A stretch of 64,000 nucleotides of DNA from positions 5,329,178 to 5,393,177 of the forward strand of contig NZ_CP024081.1 in the NCBI RefSeq assembly GCF_003033885.1. The letters run 5' to 3'. Under the pieces are notes generated by a model. That model was given only the letters and a program-made list of their open reading frames with translations. It was not told where the DNA came from and ran no database searches. A program made the position numbers and the translations under genes. This document shows positions 6,657 through 14,140 of this stretch, one piece after another; the first letter of the stretch is position 1; the number at the start of each line of letters is the position of its first letter. The DNA comes from Pseudomonas rhizophila (GTDB lineage Bacteria > Pseudomonadota > Gammaproteobacteria > Pseudomonadales > Pseudomonadaceae).

Positions 6657-9600
6657 CTAGCCCAGCGCCGTCTTCTCCAGGTGTTCGAGGATGATCGGGT
6701 ACACATCCACCACCGCGTCCTTGCCAAAAATGCAGTCGATGTGGCCGTAGCCCGGCACTTCGTGACGGCTGAACAGTTGCGGGCCGTGCATATCGCACAG
6801 TCGCTCGTAGGTCTTGAGGGTGCTTTGAGGGAGGTAGCACTGGTTCTCGGCGCCGCTGATGAAGCAGATCGGCAATTTCAACCGATCGAAATGCGGCATG
6901 TAGACGTCGTTGCCCTTGAAGTCCACCAGGTGCCCCTTGCGCACGATCAGCGCCAGGTGCTCGAAGGTCTGGATGTTCGACTCACCGAACAATTCATGCA
7001 GGTTGTCGTGCAGGGTTTCGTTGAGGGTGTCGTGGCGGTACAGCGATGCATACATGAACGTGATGCGGTGGCAGACCGGGTTGGTGCAATAGCCCTGGGC
7101 CTCGATCCGGGCATAACCGTTGAGAGCCTTGTCGTAGAGTTTGTTGAACCAGCTTTCCTTGGTGTCGGCGTAGGCCGTGAGGGACTTGATGCCGATGGCA
7201 TCGAGCATCCCCGGCAAATGCAAACCGGCCTTCAGTCCGGTGGCGGTGGCAACCACCGTGTCGGCGGCAATCTGTGAGCAGACCACCGAGCGAACCCCTT
7301 GCAGCCCCGCCAGCATCGACATGAAGAACGTCGTCGCACCGTAGCAATGCACCACACATTGCACGTCACGGGCCAACGTGGCTTGCTGGATCTGCTCGAT
7401 AGCAGCCTTGAAGTCGTACTGAGCCACCTGGTCGCCGTTCCATTCATGCTTGCTGGCCGGCAGCAGGATGCTCACCCGCAAGTCCAGCAACCAAACGTCG
7501 TACTCGTGCTTGCACAGGTACTCCAGCAGGTTGGTCTGGATGGTGTCGGTGGAGAAAATATTCGACCCCACCCCCAGGCCATGCACCAGCATCACCGGGC
7601 CTTTGCTGCCCGCTTGATAGCGAGTCAGGCGTAGCTCGACGTTGTCCTCGGTCTGGAAGAAATGCACGGTCGGCGCCGGTGCGTCCAGCGGCCGCTTGCT
7701 GCGAGGCGGCGCGTCCGGATTGAAGTACACATCGCCAGCGAACACCCCGCCGTAGCTCTCCCACAAAATGCCGGCGAAGAACTTGCCGAAGCGGGCCAAC
7801 GCTTCCACTCGCTCACGCTCGTTACGTGCGTTGAGCACTTTCATGGTGGTCATCTGCTTGGCGAAGTCGGCCGGCAGAATGTGCATCACCCCCGAGCCGA
7901 TGACCTCGCCGCTCTTGTCCGGCCCGCGATACAGCGTGACATAGAGCGTGCTGGTGTCGTGCCAGATGTTCAGCACCCCGTTGTCCTCGGGCACGGTCTT
8001 GAAGGCGCTGAAGTAATAATCGCTGCCATCCTCGGCGGTCAGTTTCATGTCGTAGTTCATGTGCCGCACATCCACCTGTTCCTGGTATTGCTCGAACAGG
8101 TTGAATACTCCGTTGCTGGCGACCAGCGGCTTGGGCGAAAGCATCGGCGCATCCAGCGTACCCACCAGGGTGGCGGCGTGTTCCGGTTCCTTGATCAGGC
8201 GATTGAGATCGGCGGCAGTGATGGTCAGGGTGAATTCGATGGGCGAGTTATCGGCTTTGCCGCGCTTGGCCGCGGCTTCGTAAAGCGAAAGATCAGTGCC
8301 CTGAGGCTGGGTGAAGGCTGTGGAAAAGTAGCCCTTCATGGTTTCAGTGAACTGCACGCCAAGGGTCGGCGCCGCCACCGGTTTGCGCGGGGCCGAAGGC
8401 AGGGTGTAGTCGATGATCCAGCCACGATCGGCCGCCAGCAGCCCCATGTTGCGCTCGCTCACCGCCGAGATGGTCAACAACGGGTTCACCGCCAGGGAAG
8501 TCGGGATCACCGCACCGTCCGTCACGTACAGACCGGGATAGACATCCGTCCCGCTGGCACCACTGAATACCTGGCCCTTGTGGTTGACCACGCCTTGCGT
8601 CGCGTCTTCCCCCATCACGCAGCCGCCCAAGGGATGGACCGAAACGATGCTGTGCTTGAGCAGCTTGGTCCAGATCGGATTCTCGACCCAGATCCCGCCC
8701 AACGCCTTGGTGCTCTGGTGCAAACGCTCATTGCCCAGGGTCACGTTTTCCTGCTCGCCGACGCCGGGCCAGTCGATGCGCAGCTGGTCCTTGTTGTCGA
8801 GCACCATGCGCCCCTTGCCGTTGTCGTGACTCATGATCAGGTAGGTCTGCATGTTATGCAGCGCGCCATAGTACGGGCCGCGCAGAAAGCTCTCGGCTTC
8901 CCGGGCCTTGTACTTGAGGCTGGCACCCAGGCCCGTGTCGGTGGGCACGCCGATCATCCCGGCGAACGCCGCCATGCTCGGCACCATGGGCCGACCGAGT
9001 GCGCCGGGGATCGAGCCTTCCTCGATGACCATGCGGCTGCGCCAGTCACCCTCGGTACGCATGTCGATGATCGAGGTGATGCACGGTCCCACCGGCTCCA
9101 GCTCCTTGGCCGAGTGGGCGCCGAAACCGATACCGTTGATGGTCTGGTCGCAGTTGTGGCCAAACCCGAGGATGTCGCCGTTGCCGCTCATGTTCTCGCC
9201 CAGTTGACTGGACATCGACAGGCCTTTGTCCCGGGAACGCAGCATGATCTCGGTAGAGCCCAGGGTGCCGGCGGACACCACCACGATGTCGGCGCGCACG
9301 AACAGGGTTGGCGCCGAGAACAACTCGCGACCGCTGTCCAGGTACTGGAAATGCACGATCCAGCCGTCGCCGTCGCGCTCCAGGTGCCGCACCTGGGCCT
9401 GACAGAAAATCTCCGCACCATGGTTCCAGGCATCCGGCAGGTAATTCATCAGCGTGGTGTTCTTGGCCTTGTTGTTACAGCCCGAGACGCAATCCCCACA
9501 GCCGTTGCACGGCAACTGCTCGACGCCGACGTGGTTGAGGTTGTTGGGCAACTTGTCGAATGTCACGTTGATGGGCGGTTTGTAGAAATGTGCGTCCTGC

Positions 9601-10109
9601 TTGAGATAACTCGCCGACTTGCGGTTGGCGTCGAGTTTGGGCAGGTTCGGCGACGCATCTGGGTAAGGGTTGGGCTTGAGCATTTCCCGAGCCCGCGCAT
9701 AACCGTCCTTGAGCAGCGTGTCGCAATGGTCACGCACCGCCTGCGGCCAGCGCGAGTCCTCGAACACACCGGGCTCCGGCTCCAGCGAAACGTTGGCGTT
9801 GATCAGCGAAGTGCCGCCCAGGCCGCAACCGACCACCACGTTCTGCTGGGCGTTGACGTGCAGGTCGAACAGTCCGGTGCGCGACCCGATGTGACCGTCC
9901 GGGTCATGCACCTGCAACTCTTCGGTGGCCGCAAGCATGGTGTTGGGGTATTCGCCGGGCTGGATCTCCCGGCCCCGCTCCAGCAGACAAACCTTGCGCC
10001 CAGCCCGGGACAGGCGTGACGCAGCAATGCCACCGCCGTAGCCGGAACCAATGACGATAACGTCGTAATGCTCCTTGATTTCGCTAATGGGGGTCGAGAT
10101 CCGTGTCAT
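6657..10109 (-). CDS. GMC oxidoreductase fused to alpha/beta hydrolase
   Basis: A 1150-residue fusion. The N-terminal part is a cholesterol-oxidase-like GMC flavoenzyme: FAD Rossmann motif VIGSGYGGGIAASR near residue 20 and the C-terminal SVHPLGGCVMG and VNPLLTISA signatures. A ferredoxin-like CxxCxxCxxxC motif (Cys201, 204, 207, 211) lies inside this domain. A middle region of about 250 residues has no domain I recognise. The C-terminal 320 residues form an alpha/beta hydrolase (VMLVHGLG oxyanion region, VHCYGA nucleophile elbow, GYGHID catalytic His). The elbow has Cys where Ser is usual. I start at the ATG at 10109, with GAGG eight bases upstream, rather than the TTG two codons earlier. 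It heads the operon with the dihaem cytochrome and phosphoesterase. Substrate unknown; a sterol, lactone or ester is plausible. Similar fusions are annotated in other proteobacteria. Confidence 0.88.
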   Translation of the reverse strand: MTRISTPISEIKEHYDVIVIGSGYGGGIAASRLSRAGRKVCLLERGREIQPGEYPNTMLAATEELQVHDPDGHIGSRTGLFDLHVNAQQNVVVGCGLGGTSLINANVSLEPEPGVFEDSRWPQAVRDHCDTLLKDGYARAREMLKPNPYPDASPNLPKLDANRKSASYLKQDAHFYKPPINVTFDKLPNNLNHVGVEQLPCNGCGDCVSGCNNKAKNTTLMNYLPDAWNHGAEIFCQAQVRHLERDGDGWIVHFQYLDSGRELFSAPTLFVRADIVVVSAGTLGSTEIMLRSRDKGLSMSSQLGENMSGNGDILGFGHNCDQTINGIGFGAHSAKELEPVGPCITSIIDMRTEGDWRSRMVIEEGSIPGALGRPMVPSMAAFAGMIGVPTDTGLGASLKYKAREAESFLRGPYYGALHNMQTYLIMSHDNGKGRMVLDNKDQLRIDWPGVGEQENVTLGNERLHQSTKALGGIWVENPIWTKLLKHSIVSVHPLGGCVMGEDATQGVVNHKGQVFSGASGTDVYPGLYVTDGAVIPTSLAVNPLLTISAVSERNMGLLAADRGWIIDYTLPSAPRKPVAAPTLGVQFTETMKGYFSTAFTQPQGTDLSLYEAAAKRGKADNSPIEFTLTITAADLNRLIKEPEHAATLVGTLDAPMLSPKPLVASNGVFNLFEQYQEQVDVRHMNYDMKLTAEDGSDYYFSAFKTVPEDNGVLNIWHDTSTLYVTLYRGPDKSGEVIGSGVMHILPADFAKQMTTMKVLNARNERERVEALARFGKFFAGILWESYGGVFAGDVYFNPDAPPRSKRPLDAPAPTVHFFQTEDNVELRLTRYQAGSKGPVMLVHGLGVGSNIFSTDTIQTNLLEYLCKHEYDVWLLDLRVSILLPASKHEWNGDQVAQYDFKAAIEQIQQATLARDVQCVVHCYGATTFFMSMLAGLQGVRSVVCSQIAADTVVATATGLKAGLHLPGMLDAIGIKSLTAYADTKESWFNKLYDKALNGYARIEAQGYCTNPVCHRITFMYASLYRHDTLNETLHDNLHELFGESNIQTFEHLALIVRKGHLVDFKGNDVYMPHFDRLKLPICFISGAENQCYLPQSTLKTYERLCDMHGPQLFSRHEVPGYGHIDCIFGKDAVVDVYPIILEHLEKTALG

Positions 10110-10249
10110 GTTCAAGTCCTCTCAGGCAGATGGGGCAACTCTGCGGTTGCCTGCAAATCGACAGGCGCACGAACGCCTGGCCACTATCCCGTACGGGTTG
10201 GAGCGGCAGTCAACGGTGTTACAGGGGAAACTCAGGGCTCAACGAGGCG

Positions 10250-10384
10250 CTATAGACGCGCACGCTGATTGGTGGCACGACGACGTCTGCGTTTGGGTAA
10301 CCGGGTGGGAGGGGTCGGAGTACAGGTCGGAGTACAGGTCGCAGCCGAGATCGGGTACCAGCAGGGGGGCTTGCTATCCATCAT
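10250..10384 (-). CDS. Possible small basic protein (44 aa)
   Basis: A 44-residue open frame starting MMDSKPPCWYP, with GGGAG about six bases before the ATG at 10384. It contains two tandem four-residue units (TCTP, TCTP), encoded by a 12-bp direct repeat that keeps the frame, and ends in a strongly basic stretch with five consecutive arginines. No family recognised. It sits just upstream of the GMC fusion gene on the same strand. The good ribosome-binding site and frame-preserving repeat favour it being real, but the length makes this uncertain. Confidence 0.3.
   Translation of the reverse strand: MMDSKPPCWYPISAATCTPTCTPTPPTRLPKRRRRRATNQRARL
10313..10341. repeat. 12-bp tandem repeat
   Basis: Two full copies and a partial third copy of ggtcggagtaca lie in tandem inside the possible 44-residue reading frame. 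A unit length divisible by three leaves that frame intact. Confidence 0.8.
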
Positions 10385-10403
10385 GCGTTCTCCCTGAACC
10401 AGA

Positions 10404-11082
10404 TGTGGATAAAGTGGCGGTGTCCTTGTGCCATGAGTGAAGACAGCTGCCAGGGCCACGTCAAGGTGGATCCTTAGAACTGTATGAAATTTGATCTATA
10501 GCGTCTGGGCCTATACCCGCCGTGGCTCTTACGCTTTCGCAAACAAGTTATCCACATGTCCACCCACAGCTAATGGGGACAAGTGCGTCATTGCGACTGA
10601 TTTTTTTAAGTAAAAGCTAAAGAAAAACCGTGACTTATGAACAAAGAGCGTTTCCTTTCCATATAGGTCAAAAACTGATCAACCACCTGAAAGCCTTGTC
10701 TAGCGTGGCTTCTGGAGGAGAGCGAACACCTTATCCACAGAAGCGCCAACAGTGTTTGGGGGTAATTCTGACGGTTCTGTGGAAAACCGCGACTATGGCC
10801 GGTAAATCGAGGTTTTAGCGGAATTTTTCGGATAAAAATGATGAATTGATCATTTTATGATCAACCCCATGAAAGCCCCGTTCCGTATGGCCTGTAGAGG
10901 GTAGCGAACATCTTATCCACAGAAGCGCCAACAGAGATTGGGGGCAAGTAGCGTCCTGCGCTCACGCTTATTCACAAACAAAATCGAGGAAAAACCGTGA
11001 GTTAGGCTGGTTGTTTTTTAAGCGCAGGCTTGGGGAGCTTGATCTGCGTGGGGTGTGGCGAGGGGCGAACAGGTTATCCACA
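10404..11082. other. DnaA-box cluster in a periodic non-coding array
   Basis: This gene-free stretch holds perfect 9-mer DnaA boxes TTATCCACA at 10548, 10731, 10913 and 11074 (plus strand) and 10404 (minus strand), plus consensus variants TTTTCCACA (minus, 10778) and TTATTCACA (10968). The plus-strand boxes lie 183, 182 and 161 bp apart because each is embedded in a degenerate repeated unit sharing ttatccacagaagcgcc, a gaaaaaccgtga block and a gcgaaca block before the box. An AT-rich segment with the palindrome ttgatcattttatgatcaa lies at 10845-10863. A sixth perfect box lies at 11978 in a displaced copy. This resembles DnaA-binding loci such as E. coli datA. It is not beside dnaA or rpmH, so I do not call it oriC. 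Function is inferred only from the motif. Confidence 0.6.
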
Positions 11083-11213
11083 GAGGCGCGCACAGGGATT
11101 GTGGGTAAACCTCAGCCCCTTGTGGGAGCGAGCCTGCTCGCGATAAGGCCATGCCAGTCAACATGGAGGTGAATGGAAGACCGCTATCGCGAGCAGGCTC
11201 GCTCCCACAAGGG
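11009..11213. repeat. Direct duplicate, left copy (DnaA box plus REPIN)
   Basis: About 200 bp here recur at 11916-12116 on the other side of the acetyltransferase gene. From the DnaA box at 11074 to the end of the REPIN (11121-11209) the two copies are nearly identical, including the REPIN loop. It continues the upstream DnaA-box array. Confidence 0.88.
11121..11209. repeat. REPIN
   Basis: Paired arms in opposite orientation, tgtgggagcgagcctgctcg and its complement, around a loop shared almost exactly with the REPIN at 12024. Confidence 0.93.
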
Positions 11214-11237
11214 TGTCTGGTGAGGCCGTCGTAATGG

Positions 11238-11804
11238 TTAAGGCCGATGCATCAAATACGCCTCCCCCGTCACCCGAATCAGCGGATGCGGGACGACCTG
11301 GCAGGTTTTGACGATGCCAAAACCGTGGCGCTCATAAAAGCGCCGGGCGCCGGTGTTCGCTGCGTAGTCGATCAAACTGAGGCCTTTGAGCGCCAGTTGA
11401 TCGGCACGTTGTTGCGCTCGCTCGAGAAAGCGCACGCCGAGCCCCTTGTTACGCCACCCTTCATGCAGGGCCAGGCTCGATATATAGAGGGTATCGGGGA
11501 CTTCCATGTCGGCGTAGGGCGCCAGGATCGGATCAGTGACGGGAGTCGCCAGCGGATCCTCACGCGTCACGTAACAATGCATCATGCCGATGACCTGTCC
11601 GCCGGCTTCTGCAATAAGGCAGTTCTGGTAGGAAAAATCGACATCCTCACGGGCATAGCGAGCAGCCCCTACCTCCAGCAGATCCTGCCCGGGCTCCGCC
11701 AGCTGGCTCCAGATGTAATCCGACGCGCCCTCTGAGGAAATCCGGAACAGACGAGCGATCTCCCGTGTATCCGTGGGCAACGCCGGACGAAATTCAACTT
11801 CCAT
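11238..11804 (-). CDS. GNAT family N-acetyltransferase
   Basis: Predicted acetyl-CoA-dependent N-acetyltransferase of 188 residues, substrate unknown. The acetyl-CoA-binding segment is seen as SLALHEGWRNKGLGVRFLER, followed by a C-terminal NTGARRFYERHGF, typical of the GNAT fold. I start at the ATG at 11804 because GGAG lies eight bases before it; the upstream TTG at 11828 has no ribosome-binding site. The gene stands alone and is bracketed by two near-identical 200-bp repeats (11009-11213 and 11916-12116), so it may have been captured within, or dropped into, the repeat array. Confidence 0.87.
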   Translation of the reverse strand: MEVEFRPALPTDTREIARLFRISSEGASDYIWSQLAEPGQDLLEVGAARYAREDVDFSYQNCLIAEAGGQVIGMMHCYVTREDPLATPVTDPILAPYADMEVPDTLYISSLALHEGWRNKGLGVRFLERAQQRADQLALKGLSLIDYAANTGARRFYERHGFGIVKTCQVVPHPLIRVTGEAYLMHRP

Positions 11805-11915
11805 TGATGTGGCTCCATTAGCTATCAAACAGCTTTTTTTAGGCGCAGGTTTGAGTCACGACAACATGCCAGGGCAGCGGTTTTATGGCTGGATGTTGCA
11901 GCGGGGCAGATTGGA

Positions 11916-12116
11916 CGTTTTTTGAGCGAAGGCTTGAAAGGCCTGATTTGCGCGGTGTCTGGATAGGATCGAACAGGTTATCCACAGAGGCGCGCACAGG
12001 GATTGTGGGTAAACCTCAGCCCTTGTGGGAGAGAGCCTGCTCGCGATGGGGCCATGTCAGTCAACCTGGAGGTGAATGGAAGACCGCTATCGCGAGCAGG
12101 CTCGCTCCCACAAGGG
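11916..12116. repeat. Direct duplicate, right copy (DnaA box plus REPIN)
   Basis: Second copy of the 11009-11213 segment. It contains the DnaA box TTATCCACA at 11978-11986 and the REPIN at 12024-12112. Divergence rises toward the 5' end, so only the inner 140 bp is nearly identical. Confidence 0.88.
12024..12112. repeat. REPIN
   Basis: Paired REP arms; the left arm has one change (gggagagagcc). Loop nearly identical to that of the REPIN at 11121. Confidence 0.93.
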
Positions 12117-12133
12117 ACAAGGTGAGCCTGGAT

Positions 12134-12904
12134 TTAACGAACCACCCCTTCCTCAATCAGCAGCTTGAGAATCGCCTCGGCGCCCGCCTCCGGGCTCACG
12201 CCTTTGAGCACCTGCCCACCTCCGCCGCTGGCCTTGGCCGTGGCGGCTTTCATGCGGTCGGCGCCGCTCTTGGCCTTGATCACTTTCAGGCGTTTGGGCC
12301 GTGGTTTGGCCGGTTGCAGGGTCGCCACCGCCAACAGGGCGTCGTCGATCACCTCGACTTCTTCAGCGTGCAACGCCCCGCGTCGGGCCGGGCCGTAGGC
12401 GCTTTGCCGGGGTTTGGGGGCCGCGTTATCCACCGTGGCGAGGAACGGCAGGCGCACTTTGAGACGTCGCCGCTGGCCGCGGGGCAAGGCTTGCAGCACC
12501 AAGGCTACGCCACTGTCGATGGATTCGACCTGGGCCAACCCCACCACCAGCGGCCAGCCGAGATTTTCTGCCAGCAGGAACGGCAACATGCCGGAACCCT
12601 CGCCGGTTTCCGCCTGACTGCCGGTGAGCACCACTTGGGCTCCCGCGTCACGCAGATAGTCGGTCAGGGCCGGCAGTGCGTCGGCGCCTGCGGGGTTATC
12701 CAGTACGTAGAGTTCGTCCAGACCCATGCCCAGATAGGCGCGCAGGGCCGGTTCAGCCACGTCGCCTGCGTGCAGCACTTGCAGGTCGTTGCCAGCCAGT
12801 TGCAGGCCCAGTTCCACGGCCCGCGCATCCTGCTCGGCGCGCCGGGGCCGACCGGAAGTGGGGTGGGCGCCGATGGACACCAGGCTGATCACTTGAGTAC
12901 TCAT
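12134..12904 (-). CDS. etfB: Electron transfer flavoprotein beta subunit
   Basis: Beta subunit of a dedicated electron-transfer flavoprotein thought to accept electrons from dimethylglycine demethylation (DgcAB). The 256-residue protein has the ETF beta fold, with GSQAETGEGSGMLPFLLAE in the nucleotide-binding region. The ATG at 12904 is preceded by AAGGA at seven bases. It is the last gene of the leftward operon, 15 bp after etfA. The pair differs from the housekeeping EtfAB and is known to be conserved beside dgcB in pseudomonads. Confidence 0.88.
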   Translation of the reverse strand: MSTQVISLVSIGAHPTSGRPRRAEQDARAVELGLQLAGNDLQVLHAGDVAEPALRAYLGMGLDELYVLDNPAGADALPALTDYLRDAGAQVVLTGSQAETGEGSGMLPFLLAENLGWPLVVGLAQVESIDSGVALVLQALPRGQRRRLKVRLPFLATVDNAAPKPRQSAYGPARRGALHAEEVEVIDDALLAVATLQPAKPRPKRLKVIKAKSGADRMKAATAKASGGGGQVLKGVSPEAGAEAILKLLIEEGVVR

Positions 12905-12919
12905 GGTTGAATCCTTAGC

Positions 12920-14140
12920 TTAAGCCGCATCGCGCTTGGCTTCGTTGCGGTACGCCTCTACCGCCGCGATCAAGGCCTGGAGAATCGCCGCGCTGTCGCC
13001 AATCACCGACAGGTCTGCCCGTTTGATCATGTCGCAGCCCGGATCGAGGTTGATCGCCACCACCTTGTCGCAGGCGCCGATGCCCTGCAGGTGCTGGATA
13101 GCCCCGGAAATCCCCACCGCGACGTAGACCCGCGCCGTAACCCAGGTGCCGGACGCGCCAACCTGGCGATCCCGCGCCATGAAGCCATCGTCCACCGCTA
13201 CCCGCGAAGCACCCTCGGTGGCGCCCAGGGCCGCAGCGGTCTGGTGGAACAGCGCCCAGTCCTTGACCCCGTTGCCGCCGGAAAAAATGAATTCGGCTTC
13301 GGCCATCGGAATCGCGCCCGGGTCCACCGCCACCGCGCCCAGGTCTTCGATGCGCGACAAGCTGCGGGCCACGCCTGTGGATAACTCCACCGGCAAGGCT
13401 TCGTGGCGGGTTTCGCTGACCGGTTCGGCGCATTCGGCCGCGGCCAGGATCAACCGCGCCAAAGGCCGCGCCAGGTCTTGCAGGCCGGCACCGGCCCGAC
13501 CGATGCACTCCTCACCCTTGACCTGCCAGACCCGCGTGGCCGGGCGCTCGCCCAGGGCTGCGGCAAACCGCCGGCCCAGTTCGCCGCCACCGGTGCGGCT
13601 GTCAGGCAGCAGCCAATGGCGTGGGTTGAATTGGTTATCCACAGCCCGCAGGCCCTGGACTCGCTGTTCCGGTGCATAACCGCTGAACGCATCGCCTTCC
13701 AATACCAGCAAGCGGTCGACACCGGCCGTGGCAAAGGTGCTTTCCTTGTGCTCACCGAAGACCACTGCCAGCACCGCGCCGCCGGTACCGGCCAATTGAT
13801 GGGCCAGGCCCAGCAGATCGCGGTCGTGACTGCTGAGACGACCGCCCACCATGTCCGGCACCACGCAGATATAAAACGCCGGTTGCGGCACCTGATGCAG
13901 CGGCAATTGCACTTCAGTTGCCGCAGTGCGCTTGGTCGCGCCGCCCTGCTGGGCGCCGCTGCGGTCGATACGCTTGATGCCGTTGGGGCCGATGAATCCG
14001 ACACCATGAACGTTCTTGCGGATGACACCGTTGGGACCCATCCAGCTGTGCTGGACCGGTTGCATGGCCGCGTGCAGTGGGTGCAGGCGGTTACGGGCGA
14101 TCCACTCGGCGCGAGGGTCGCGGCGGATGATGTCGCTCAT
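12920..14140 (-). CDS. etfA: Electron transfer flavoprotein alpha subunit
   Basis: Alpha subunit of the catabolism-linked ETF, with FAD bound in the C-terminal half. The 406-residue chain is longer than a housekeeping EtfA of about 310 because of an N-terminal extension rich in basic residues. The C-terminal part shows the FAD-binding pattern (VAVDDGFMARDRQVGASG, then VAINLDPGCDMIKRADLSVIGD). Start and upstream stop overlap as TAATG with dgcB, and GGAGGTGC lies just before the ATG, indicating translational coupling. Two perfect DnaA-box 9-mers (13376 and 13635) fall inside the coding sequence; their meaning is unknown. Confidence 0.9.
   Translation of the reverse strand: MSDIIRRDPRAEWIARNRLHPLHAAMQPVQHSWMGPNGVIRKNVHGVGFIGPNGIKRIDRSGAQQGGATKRTAATEVQLPLHQVPQPAFYICVVPDMVGGRLSSHDRDLLGLAHQLAGTGGAVLAVVFGEHKESTFATAGVDRLLVLEGDAFSGYAPEQRVQGLRAVDNQFNPRHWLLPDSRTGGGELGRRFAAALGERPATRVWQVKGEECIGRAGAGLQDLARPLARLILAAAECAEPVSETRHEALPVELSTGVARSLSRIEDLGAVAVDPGAIPMAEAEFIFSGGNGVKDWALFHQTAAALGATEGASRVAVDDGFMARDRQVGASGTWVTARVYVAVGISGAIQHLQGIGACDKVVAINLDPGCDMIKRADLSVIGDSAAILQALIAAVEAYRNEAKRDAA

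Follow-up and report, generated by a model that had tools for sequence, protein, structure and literature searches.

A window of 64,000 nucleotides of the Pseudomonas rhizophila chromosome was analyzed, corresponding to positions 5329178-5393177 of the genome contig (genome of 5.95 Mb, single contig). Within it lies an array of DnaA boxes, units 1-4 of which are placed upstream of a GMC-oxidoreductase-like gene (6657-10115, minus strand); etfB and an ETF-alpha gene, both on the minus strand, are further neighbors. An earlier note, made from the window alone, described the cluster as mostly gene-free. This description holds with one refinement, as a single GNAT gene of 188 aa (11238-11804, minus strand) is found inside the array region. 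The four identified neighbor genes are metabolic or acetyltransferase genes. The GC content is 55% in 10120-12139, compared with 61% over the whole window. With dnaA at genome position 5814646, the box at 10548 is 475 kb from that gene.

All six perfect copies of the 9-mer TTATCCACA listed in the earlier note were recovered at the same places and on the same strands (10404, minus; 10548, 10731, 10913, 11074, and 11978, plus), together with its two consensus variants, TTTTCCACA at 10778 (minus) and TTATTCACA at 10968 (plus). The perfect boxes it had placed outside the cluster (13376, minus; 13635, plus; 22380, minus) are also present, and one more, at 1200 (minus), had been missed. The note expected fewer than one such 9-mer by chance per 64 kb, and the excess is confirmed: the window holds 10 perfect boxes, against 0.13 expected from 100 dinucleotide shuffles, none of which reached 10. 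Genome-wide, 117 perfect boxes were counted, compared with 15 occurrences of the reversed pattern. Single boxes are therefore not rare in this genome, and what distinguishes the locus is the tandem arrangement of its composite modules. The perfect boxes are skewed toward the origin, with 61 of the 117 at most 500 kb from dnaA; on the left arm, the interval 1.0-2.5 Mb from dnaA contains none.

In a search of the window with R2, a 104-column sequence model built from 52 modules, only five units were found, and the isolated boxes at 1200, 10404, 13376, 13635, and 22380 are not modules. The lone perfect box at 10404..10412 (minus strand) lies 144 bp before unit 1; of the 73 aligned arrays, which include that of the window, 31 have such a box at 144-148 bp. 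As the note had proposed, the boxes at 13376 and 13635 fall in etfA, i.e., in an open reading frame with ETF-alpha domains. These two boxes are 259 bp apart, and both are kept in 75 of the 80 named loci introduced below, which may reflect codon conservation only.

Five of the six reported boxes belong to composite modules of about 100 bp. In this layout, TTATCCACA (box III) stands forward at position 0, a weak box II stands forward at +12, and an inverted box I stands at +26. In units 2-5, a Fis-type site is located at -65, and a spacer of about 50 bp separates it from the DnaA core. Box I matches the consensus at 6-8 of 9 positions in all five units, and box II at only 4-6 of 9. The near-regular intervals that had been reported are borne out at 183, 182, and 161 bp.

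All five units lie on the plus strand. Unit 1 (10481..10583; 39.7 bits with R2) comprises box III at 10548-10556, a box II-like element, CCACCCACA, at 10560-10568, and the inverted box I, TGGGGACAA, at 10574-10582; its Fis-type site is weak (8/13 at -65, 11/13 at -66). Unit 2 (10666..10766; 73.7 bits) carries the Fis-type site GGTCAAAAACTGATC at 10666-10680 (12/13), followed by boxes III (10731-10739), II (10743-10751), and inverted I (10757-10765). An extra inverted DnaA-like box, the variant TTTTCCACA at 10778..10786 (minus strand), lies downstream of unit 2, and this place (+47, unit 2) has a mean match of 7.54/9 over 68 arrays. Unit 3 (10846..10948), with 81.1 bits, has the Fis-type site GATCATTTTATGATC at 10848-10862 (13/13) and boxes III, II, and inverted I at 10913-10921, 10925-10933, and 10939-10947, respectively. 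In unit 4 (11008..11109; 65.5 bits), the Fis-type site GGTTGTTTTTTAAGC at 11009-11023 (12/13) precedes box III (11074-11082), box II (11086-11094), and the inverted box I, TGTGGGTAA, at 11100-11108. Unit 5 (11911..12013; 66.0 bits) is a local duplicate of unit 4, with a Fis-type site at 11913-11927 (11/13) and boxes III, II, and inverted I at 11978-11986, 11990-11998, and 12004-12012. The two copies, represented by the boxes at 11978 and 11074, are 85% identical over 111 nt and 904 bp apart.

Other repeated elements accompany the units. An inverted repeat without assigned strand adjoins unit 4 outside the module (11117..11213), and a second copy, 95% identical to the first, adjoins unit 5 (12020..12116, likewise without strand); we take both to be REP-like. 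Unit 4 and its REP-like neighbor (11008-11213) are duplicated as 11911-12116, so that the copies flank the GNAT gene on both sides. The sequence GAAAAACCGTGA[CG]TTA occurs between units at 10622-10637 and 10989-11004 and recurs in many other arrays; it was matched to no recognized site.

The conservation of the array was examined through an EtfB search, in which 369 relatives were confirmed; the best 80 of the 369, all labelled Pseudomonas, were kept as named loci. Four perfect boxes at spacings of 181-184, 180-193, and 149-161 are present in 67 of the 80, and three boxes in five more. The full box pattern is missing from the other eight (L033, L040, L041, L047, L057, L073, L088, and L095), the first four of which are cut by contig ends. 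A looser module test accepted box III at 8/9 or better, box I at 5 or better, and a Fis match of at least 9 within one base of -65. By this test, four successive modules at distances of 140-200 bp are found in 72/80 named Pseudomonas loci, a figure that rises to 74/80 when the Fis condition is dropped. The failures comprise the four loci cut by contig ends (three with no module, one with two), L057 with two non-adjacent modules, and L045, L061, and L096 with runs of three.

Spacings between neighboring units cluster at 149-151, 159-161, 171-172, 180-184, and 192-193; a single spacing is 247. Their helical phasing has a resultant of 0.96 at a period of 10.6 bp; since common descent accounts for many of these values, the independent steps are few. 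The distance from the array to etfB varies between species from about 0.1 to more than 4 kb, while the layout of the array is constant. The spacers have diverged, but the positions of box, partner box, and Fis-type site are kept. Irrespective of synteny, a strict three-box pattern was found in 80 of 149 genomes of the genus and not in the remaining 69, and the control gave 0 matches. Among the findings that the earlier note had named as speaking against its reading were non-conservation among close strains and a chance occurrence of the 9-mer in a mobile repeat. Boxes and spacing are kept among relatives, and neither of these two findings was made. In 30 genomes picked for an array far along contig C1, a selection from such genomes, the median distance from array to dnaA is 554 kb; 28 of the 30 fall at 381-649 kb, and the others at 755 and 1116 kb. 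For contigs that start with dnaA, these distances derive from genome sizes rounded to 0.1 Mb, which limits their accuracy to about 50 kb. Seven of the 30 assemblies consist of two or three contigs.

The geometry of the module was scanned over 68 arrays (67 named loci and the window), covering 298 combinations of offset and strand. The top second DnaA-like match is the inverted one at +26, with a mean of 6.75/9; the next reaches 4.67, and all combinations average 2.28 (SD 0.78). The forward match at +12 ranks fourth of 298 (4.50), mainly owing to unit 1 (5.97); units 2-4 have a poor box II, at about 4/9. Across all 117 perfect boxes in the genome, +26 inverted is again the most frequent second relation, with 11 sites at 6/9 or better. 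When the array is left out, -12 forward comes first (7 sites) and +26 inverted second (6 sites), which correspond to the III-II and III-I relations in DARS.

Over the same 68 arrays, the Fis consensus at -65 is matched at 12.1, 11.9, and 11.5 of 13 positions in units 2, 3, and 4, and at 7.1 in unit 1, and six shuffled consensuses peak at no more than 8.99, compared with 10.64 for the real one. Since R2 was trained with the Fis site, Fis sites in R2-found loci are partly selected; tests free of this selection are provided by all genome boxes, by the EtfB-found named loci, and by loci found with R1, a 56-column core model without Fis columns. In the genome, a Fis match of at least 11/13 at -65 accompanies 9 of the 117 boxes, against a mean of 0.07 per offset. 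These nine are four array units and boxes at 528.7, 642.9, 643.1, 5297.8, and 5297.9 kb. Among 610 perfect boxes in the named loci, a Fis match of this strength stands at -65 in 219 and at -66 in 45, and the next offset accounts for 3; all 219 boxes with Fis at -65 carry a box I of at least 6. In the R1-found loci, Fis matches of at least 10 stand at -65 in 27 of 36 boxes, the 36 including non-module boxes. A Fis homolog is encoded in the genome (E 9.3e-25). In the array scan, no IHF consensus was found at a fixed place (best mean 5.5/9), and the Anr consensus gave no fixed-place signal approaching that of Fis.

Columns 25-51 of the module (e.g., 10870-10896) form a dyad-symmetric segment, centered about 30 bp before box III and containing an invariant C and G. 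Its pairing amounts to 55.9% of cells in register, compared with at most 45.5% when slid. Covariation showed no excess (60 cells vs. 59.6 in shuffles); thus, no RNA is claimed, and the dyad is perhaps a site for a third protein.

According to the R2 genome search, there are 11 modules at four loci: five in the window and two each at 528, 643, and 5298 kb. All modules have E values of at most 2.1e-9, and the next match stands at 0.0039. At a threshold of E <=1e-4, R1 matched 99 of 198 family genomes in 10 of 19 genera, and R2 matched 118 of 244 genomes in a draw from the order, 97 of 274 from the class, and 36 of 200 from the phylum. The phylum draw served as a control: of its 36 matching genomes, 16 belong to other classes, with a best E of 2.2e-7 and many partial matches. 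In view of this background, E values near 1e-5 are not taken as proof for hits beyond the family. Strong hits extend to other genera and families, and weak ones beyond the family include noise.

In 28 distant loci (L209-L236, some near-identical), the +12 box has a mean match of 8.25/9 and the +26 box one of 8.0/9; box II is perfect in many distant modules. Fis matches of at least 10 occur at -66 in 17 of these loci and at -65 in 12, two groups that may overlap and for which R2 selects. An oriC-type origin of the distant hits was considered and rejected: in a scan of ten loci, one flanking gene each, the genes were priA (twice), aroE, truC, an SDR gene, transporters, and others, with neither dnaA nor mnmG among them. 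In L219 and L220, from two other families, the modules precede a priA-like gene, at a distance of at most about 150 bp.

The core of the module can be set beside the DnaA-reactivating sequences of Escherichia coli. Counted from box III, DARS1 of MG1655 reads TAATACACA-TGG-TTATCCACA-GGAAT-AGTGGATAA, and DARS2 reads TCTTACACC-ATG-TTATCCACA-GAAAG-CTGGGATAA. The order, orientation, and spacing of the boxes (0/+12/+26) are identical in both sites and in the array. In agreement with this reading, equal spacing at both DARS sites and a box I opposite to II and III are described in the literature (PMC5742627). R3, a core model built from 28 module-core sequences with no E. coli among them, was run on four E. 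coli stretches (196 kb) chosen for DARS1, DARS2, datA, and oriC with dnaA. It placed DARS1 first (22.5 bits) and DARS2 second (16.2 bits), followed by the other strand of DARS1 (14.0), datA (13.8), and the right edge of oriC (13.0). In the P. rhizophila genome, all five array units are among the 12 best R3 matches. R2 detected DARS1 in register on E. coli at 15.0 bits, just below a partial site of 15.4 bits near the dnaA gene of P. rhizophila, and reported no match at DARS2.

Two cores of the E. coli type, likewise detected with R3, also occur in P. rhizophila itself, at 1394473-1394502 and 1424897-1424928 (L026 and L028). The two are separated by 30 kb and lie on the other arm, at distances of about 1.53 and 1.56 Mb from dnaA. 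Box II is perfect in both, box I in the second only, and a Fis-like match of 10/13 stands at -66. They are candidates for the true DARS counterparts of this genome.

The best reading of these features is that the array would control the state or supply of DnaA. The earlier suggestion of a datA- or DARS-like locus gains support from the DARS core geometry, the Fis-type site in four of five units, and the conserved boxes and spacing. With moderate confidence, we interpret the locus as a tandem DARS-like array with a reactivating role; judged by the core geometry, DnaA would be reactivated, not inactivated or simply titrated. Among known functions, the closest is the ADP-to-ATP exchange on DnaA at DARS. 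As the array shares the layout of the E. coli DnaA-recharging sites and is conserved in many related species, it is probably a switch that helps to time chromosome copying. On account of its strong box III, weak box II, lack of a fixed IHF consensus, and datA-like near-origin place, it is called a DARS-like variant and not a plain DARS.

Geometry, Fis-type site, and phasing point to an ordered DnaA-Fis complex. In such a complex, DnaA would anchor at the strong box III and pair with DnaA bound to the weaker, inverted box I. Fis would introduce a bend at about -58, and units on one helix face would cooperate. Most likely, ADP would leave DnaA faster in this assembly, and ATP-DnaA would thus be regenerated when Fis is abundant, i.e., during fast growth, thereby promoting timely initiation. 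Early in the cycle, the copies near oriC would contribute extra dosage.

A datA-like role, in which DnaA gathers on the same-facing strong boxes and has its ATP hydrolyzed or is titrated, with extra copies soon after initiation holding initiation back, is the main alternative but rather doubtful. It would fit the near-origin place (475 kb, against about 467 kb for E. coli datA), the same orientation of the five box III elements (four 161-183 bp apart, the fifth 904 bp on), and the 61 of 117 genome boxes close to dnaA. An origin-ward skew of DnaA boxes has been tied to titration in a 2025 E. coli study (PMC12371093). However, the inverted box I at +26, at 6/9 or better in 5/5 units, is not a feature of datA, a fixed IHF consensus was not found in the array, and R3 ranks datA below both DARS sites. 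The helical phasing and the dyad with its invariant C and G, which suggest an ordered complex, could also be explained by a site at which DnaA and Fis, together with a protein bound at the dyad near -30, organize the ori region with no direct role in the nucleotide cycle. This is improbable, as the core resembles DARS sites, whose action is on DnaA, and nothing independent points to folding.

Still less probable is a regulatory region for a flanking gene, or a small-RNA array. DnaA is a known transcription factor (PMC8203912), and the GMC-oxidoreductase-like gene has units 1-4 on its upstream side, but the layout stays constant across the varying distances to etfB, distant modules adjoin unrelated genes, and the array shows no sigma-70-like promoter, no Rfam family at gathering score, and no covariation in the dyad. 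Terminator-like sites at the array number one, compared with 1.9 in shuffles. It is very hard to maintain that the units are a mobile repeat bearing the 9-mer by chance; unit 5 and its REP-like neighbor are indeed a local duplication, but the 11 modules occupy only four loci with a sharp gap in E (2.1e-9 to 0.0039), the named loci share the place near etfB and the spacing, and the box, partner box, and Fis positions outlasted the divergence of the spacers. A second replication origin, for which DnaA boxes with AT-rich stretches could be cited, has an equally slight chance: the four identified neighbor genes are metabolic or acetyltransferase genes, and the box cluster expected of oriC is found at dnaA, itself without a module.

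In Pseudomonas putida, the dnaA promoter is reported to hold 12 DnaA boxes (PMC8203912). Among the open-licence matches listed, no title or abstract opening mentioned datA- or DARS-like loci in Pseudomonas. DnaA-box clusters away from oriC are described as repressing untimely initiation in Bacillus subtilis and Streptomyces coelicolor (PMC5742627). The array likewise consists of boxes away from oriC. We know of no box trio or Fis site in the clusters of those two species.

With datA, the array has in common a near-origin place (about 467 kb from oriC for datA, 475 kb from dnaA for the array) and several DnaA boxes facing one way. In datA, the essential boxes are described as all facing the same way and as having an IHF site between them (PMC5742627), whereas the strong boxes of the array each have an inverted partner and, in four of five units, a Fis-type site. 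The array also differs from DARS. The strong box is III in the array and II in E. coli DARS; box II is of consensus strength in DARS1 and DARS2, but reaches 4-6/9 in the array. A Fis-like match is found on the box III side in both DARS2 and the array, with the best match at -163 in the former and at -65 in four of five units of the latter. DARS2 has IHF sites, whereas the array has no fixed IHF consensus. DARS2 is reported to need IHF as well as Fis and to be less effective when the Fis or IHF sites are shifted by 5 bp (PMC4245941). Unlike DARS1 and DARS2, the array has four to five tandem copies, and it lies 475 kb from dnaA, compared with about 956 kb from oriC for DARS2.

The DARS2 core is described as conserved among gammaproteobacteria related to E. 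coli (PMC4245941), and the present results suggest that DARS-type cores are spread more widely than that. Initiation timing outside the enterobacteria is poorly known, and the modules offer a short, conserved set of sites in Pseudomonas that can be deleted one at a time or jointly. The 11 modules at four loci carry built-in predictions concerning Fis dependence, helical phasing, and the recharging or draining of ATP-DnaA. To our knowledge, the Pseudomonadaceae lineage is free of SeqA and Dam. As a tentative proposal, the Fis-coupled DnaA module, with its Fis-type site at -65/-66 and its DARS-type trio, may be ancient in gammaproteobacteria, with E. coli DARS as one form derived from it, and the Pseudomonadaceae may have multiplied it into helically phased tandem arrays near oriC that combine a DARS core with the place of datA. 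If true, one set of loci in the Pseudomonadaceae does what E. coli spreads over separate sites.
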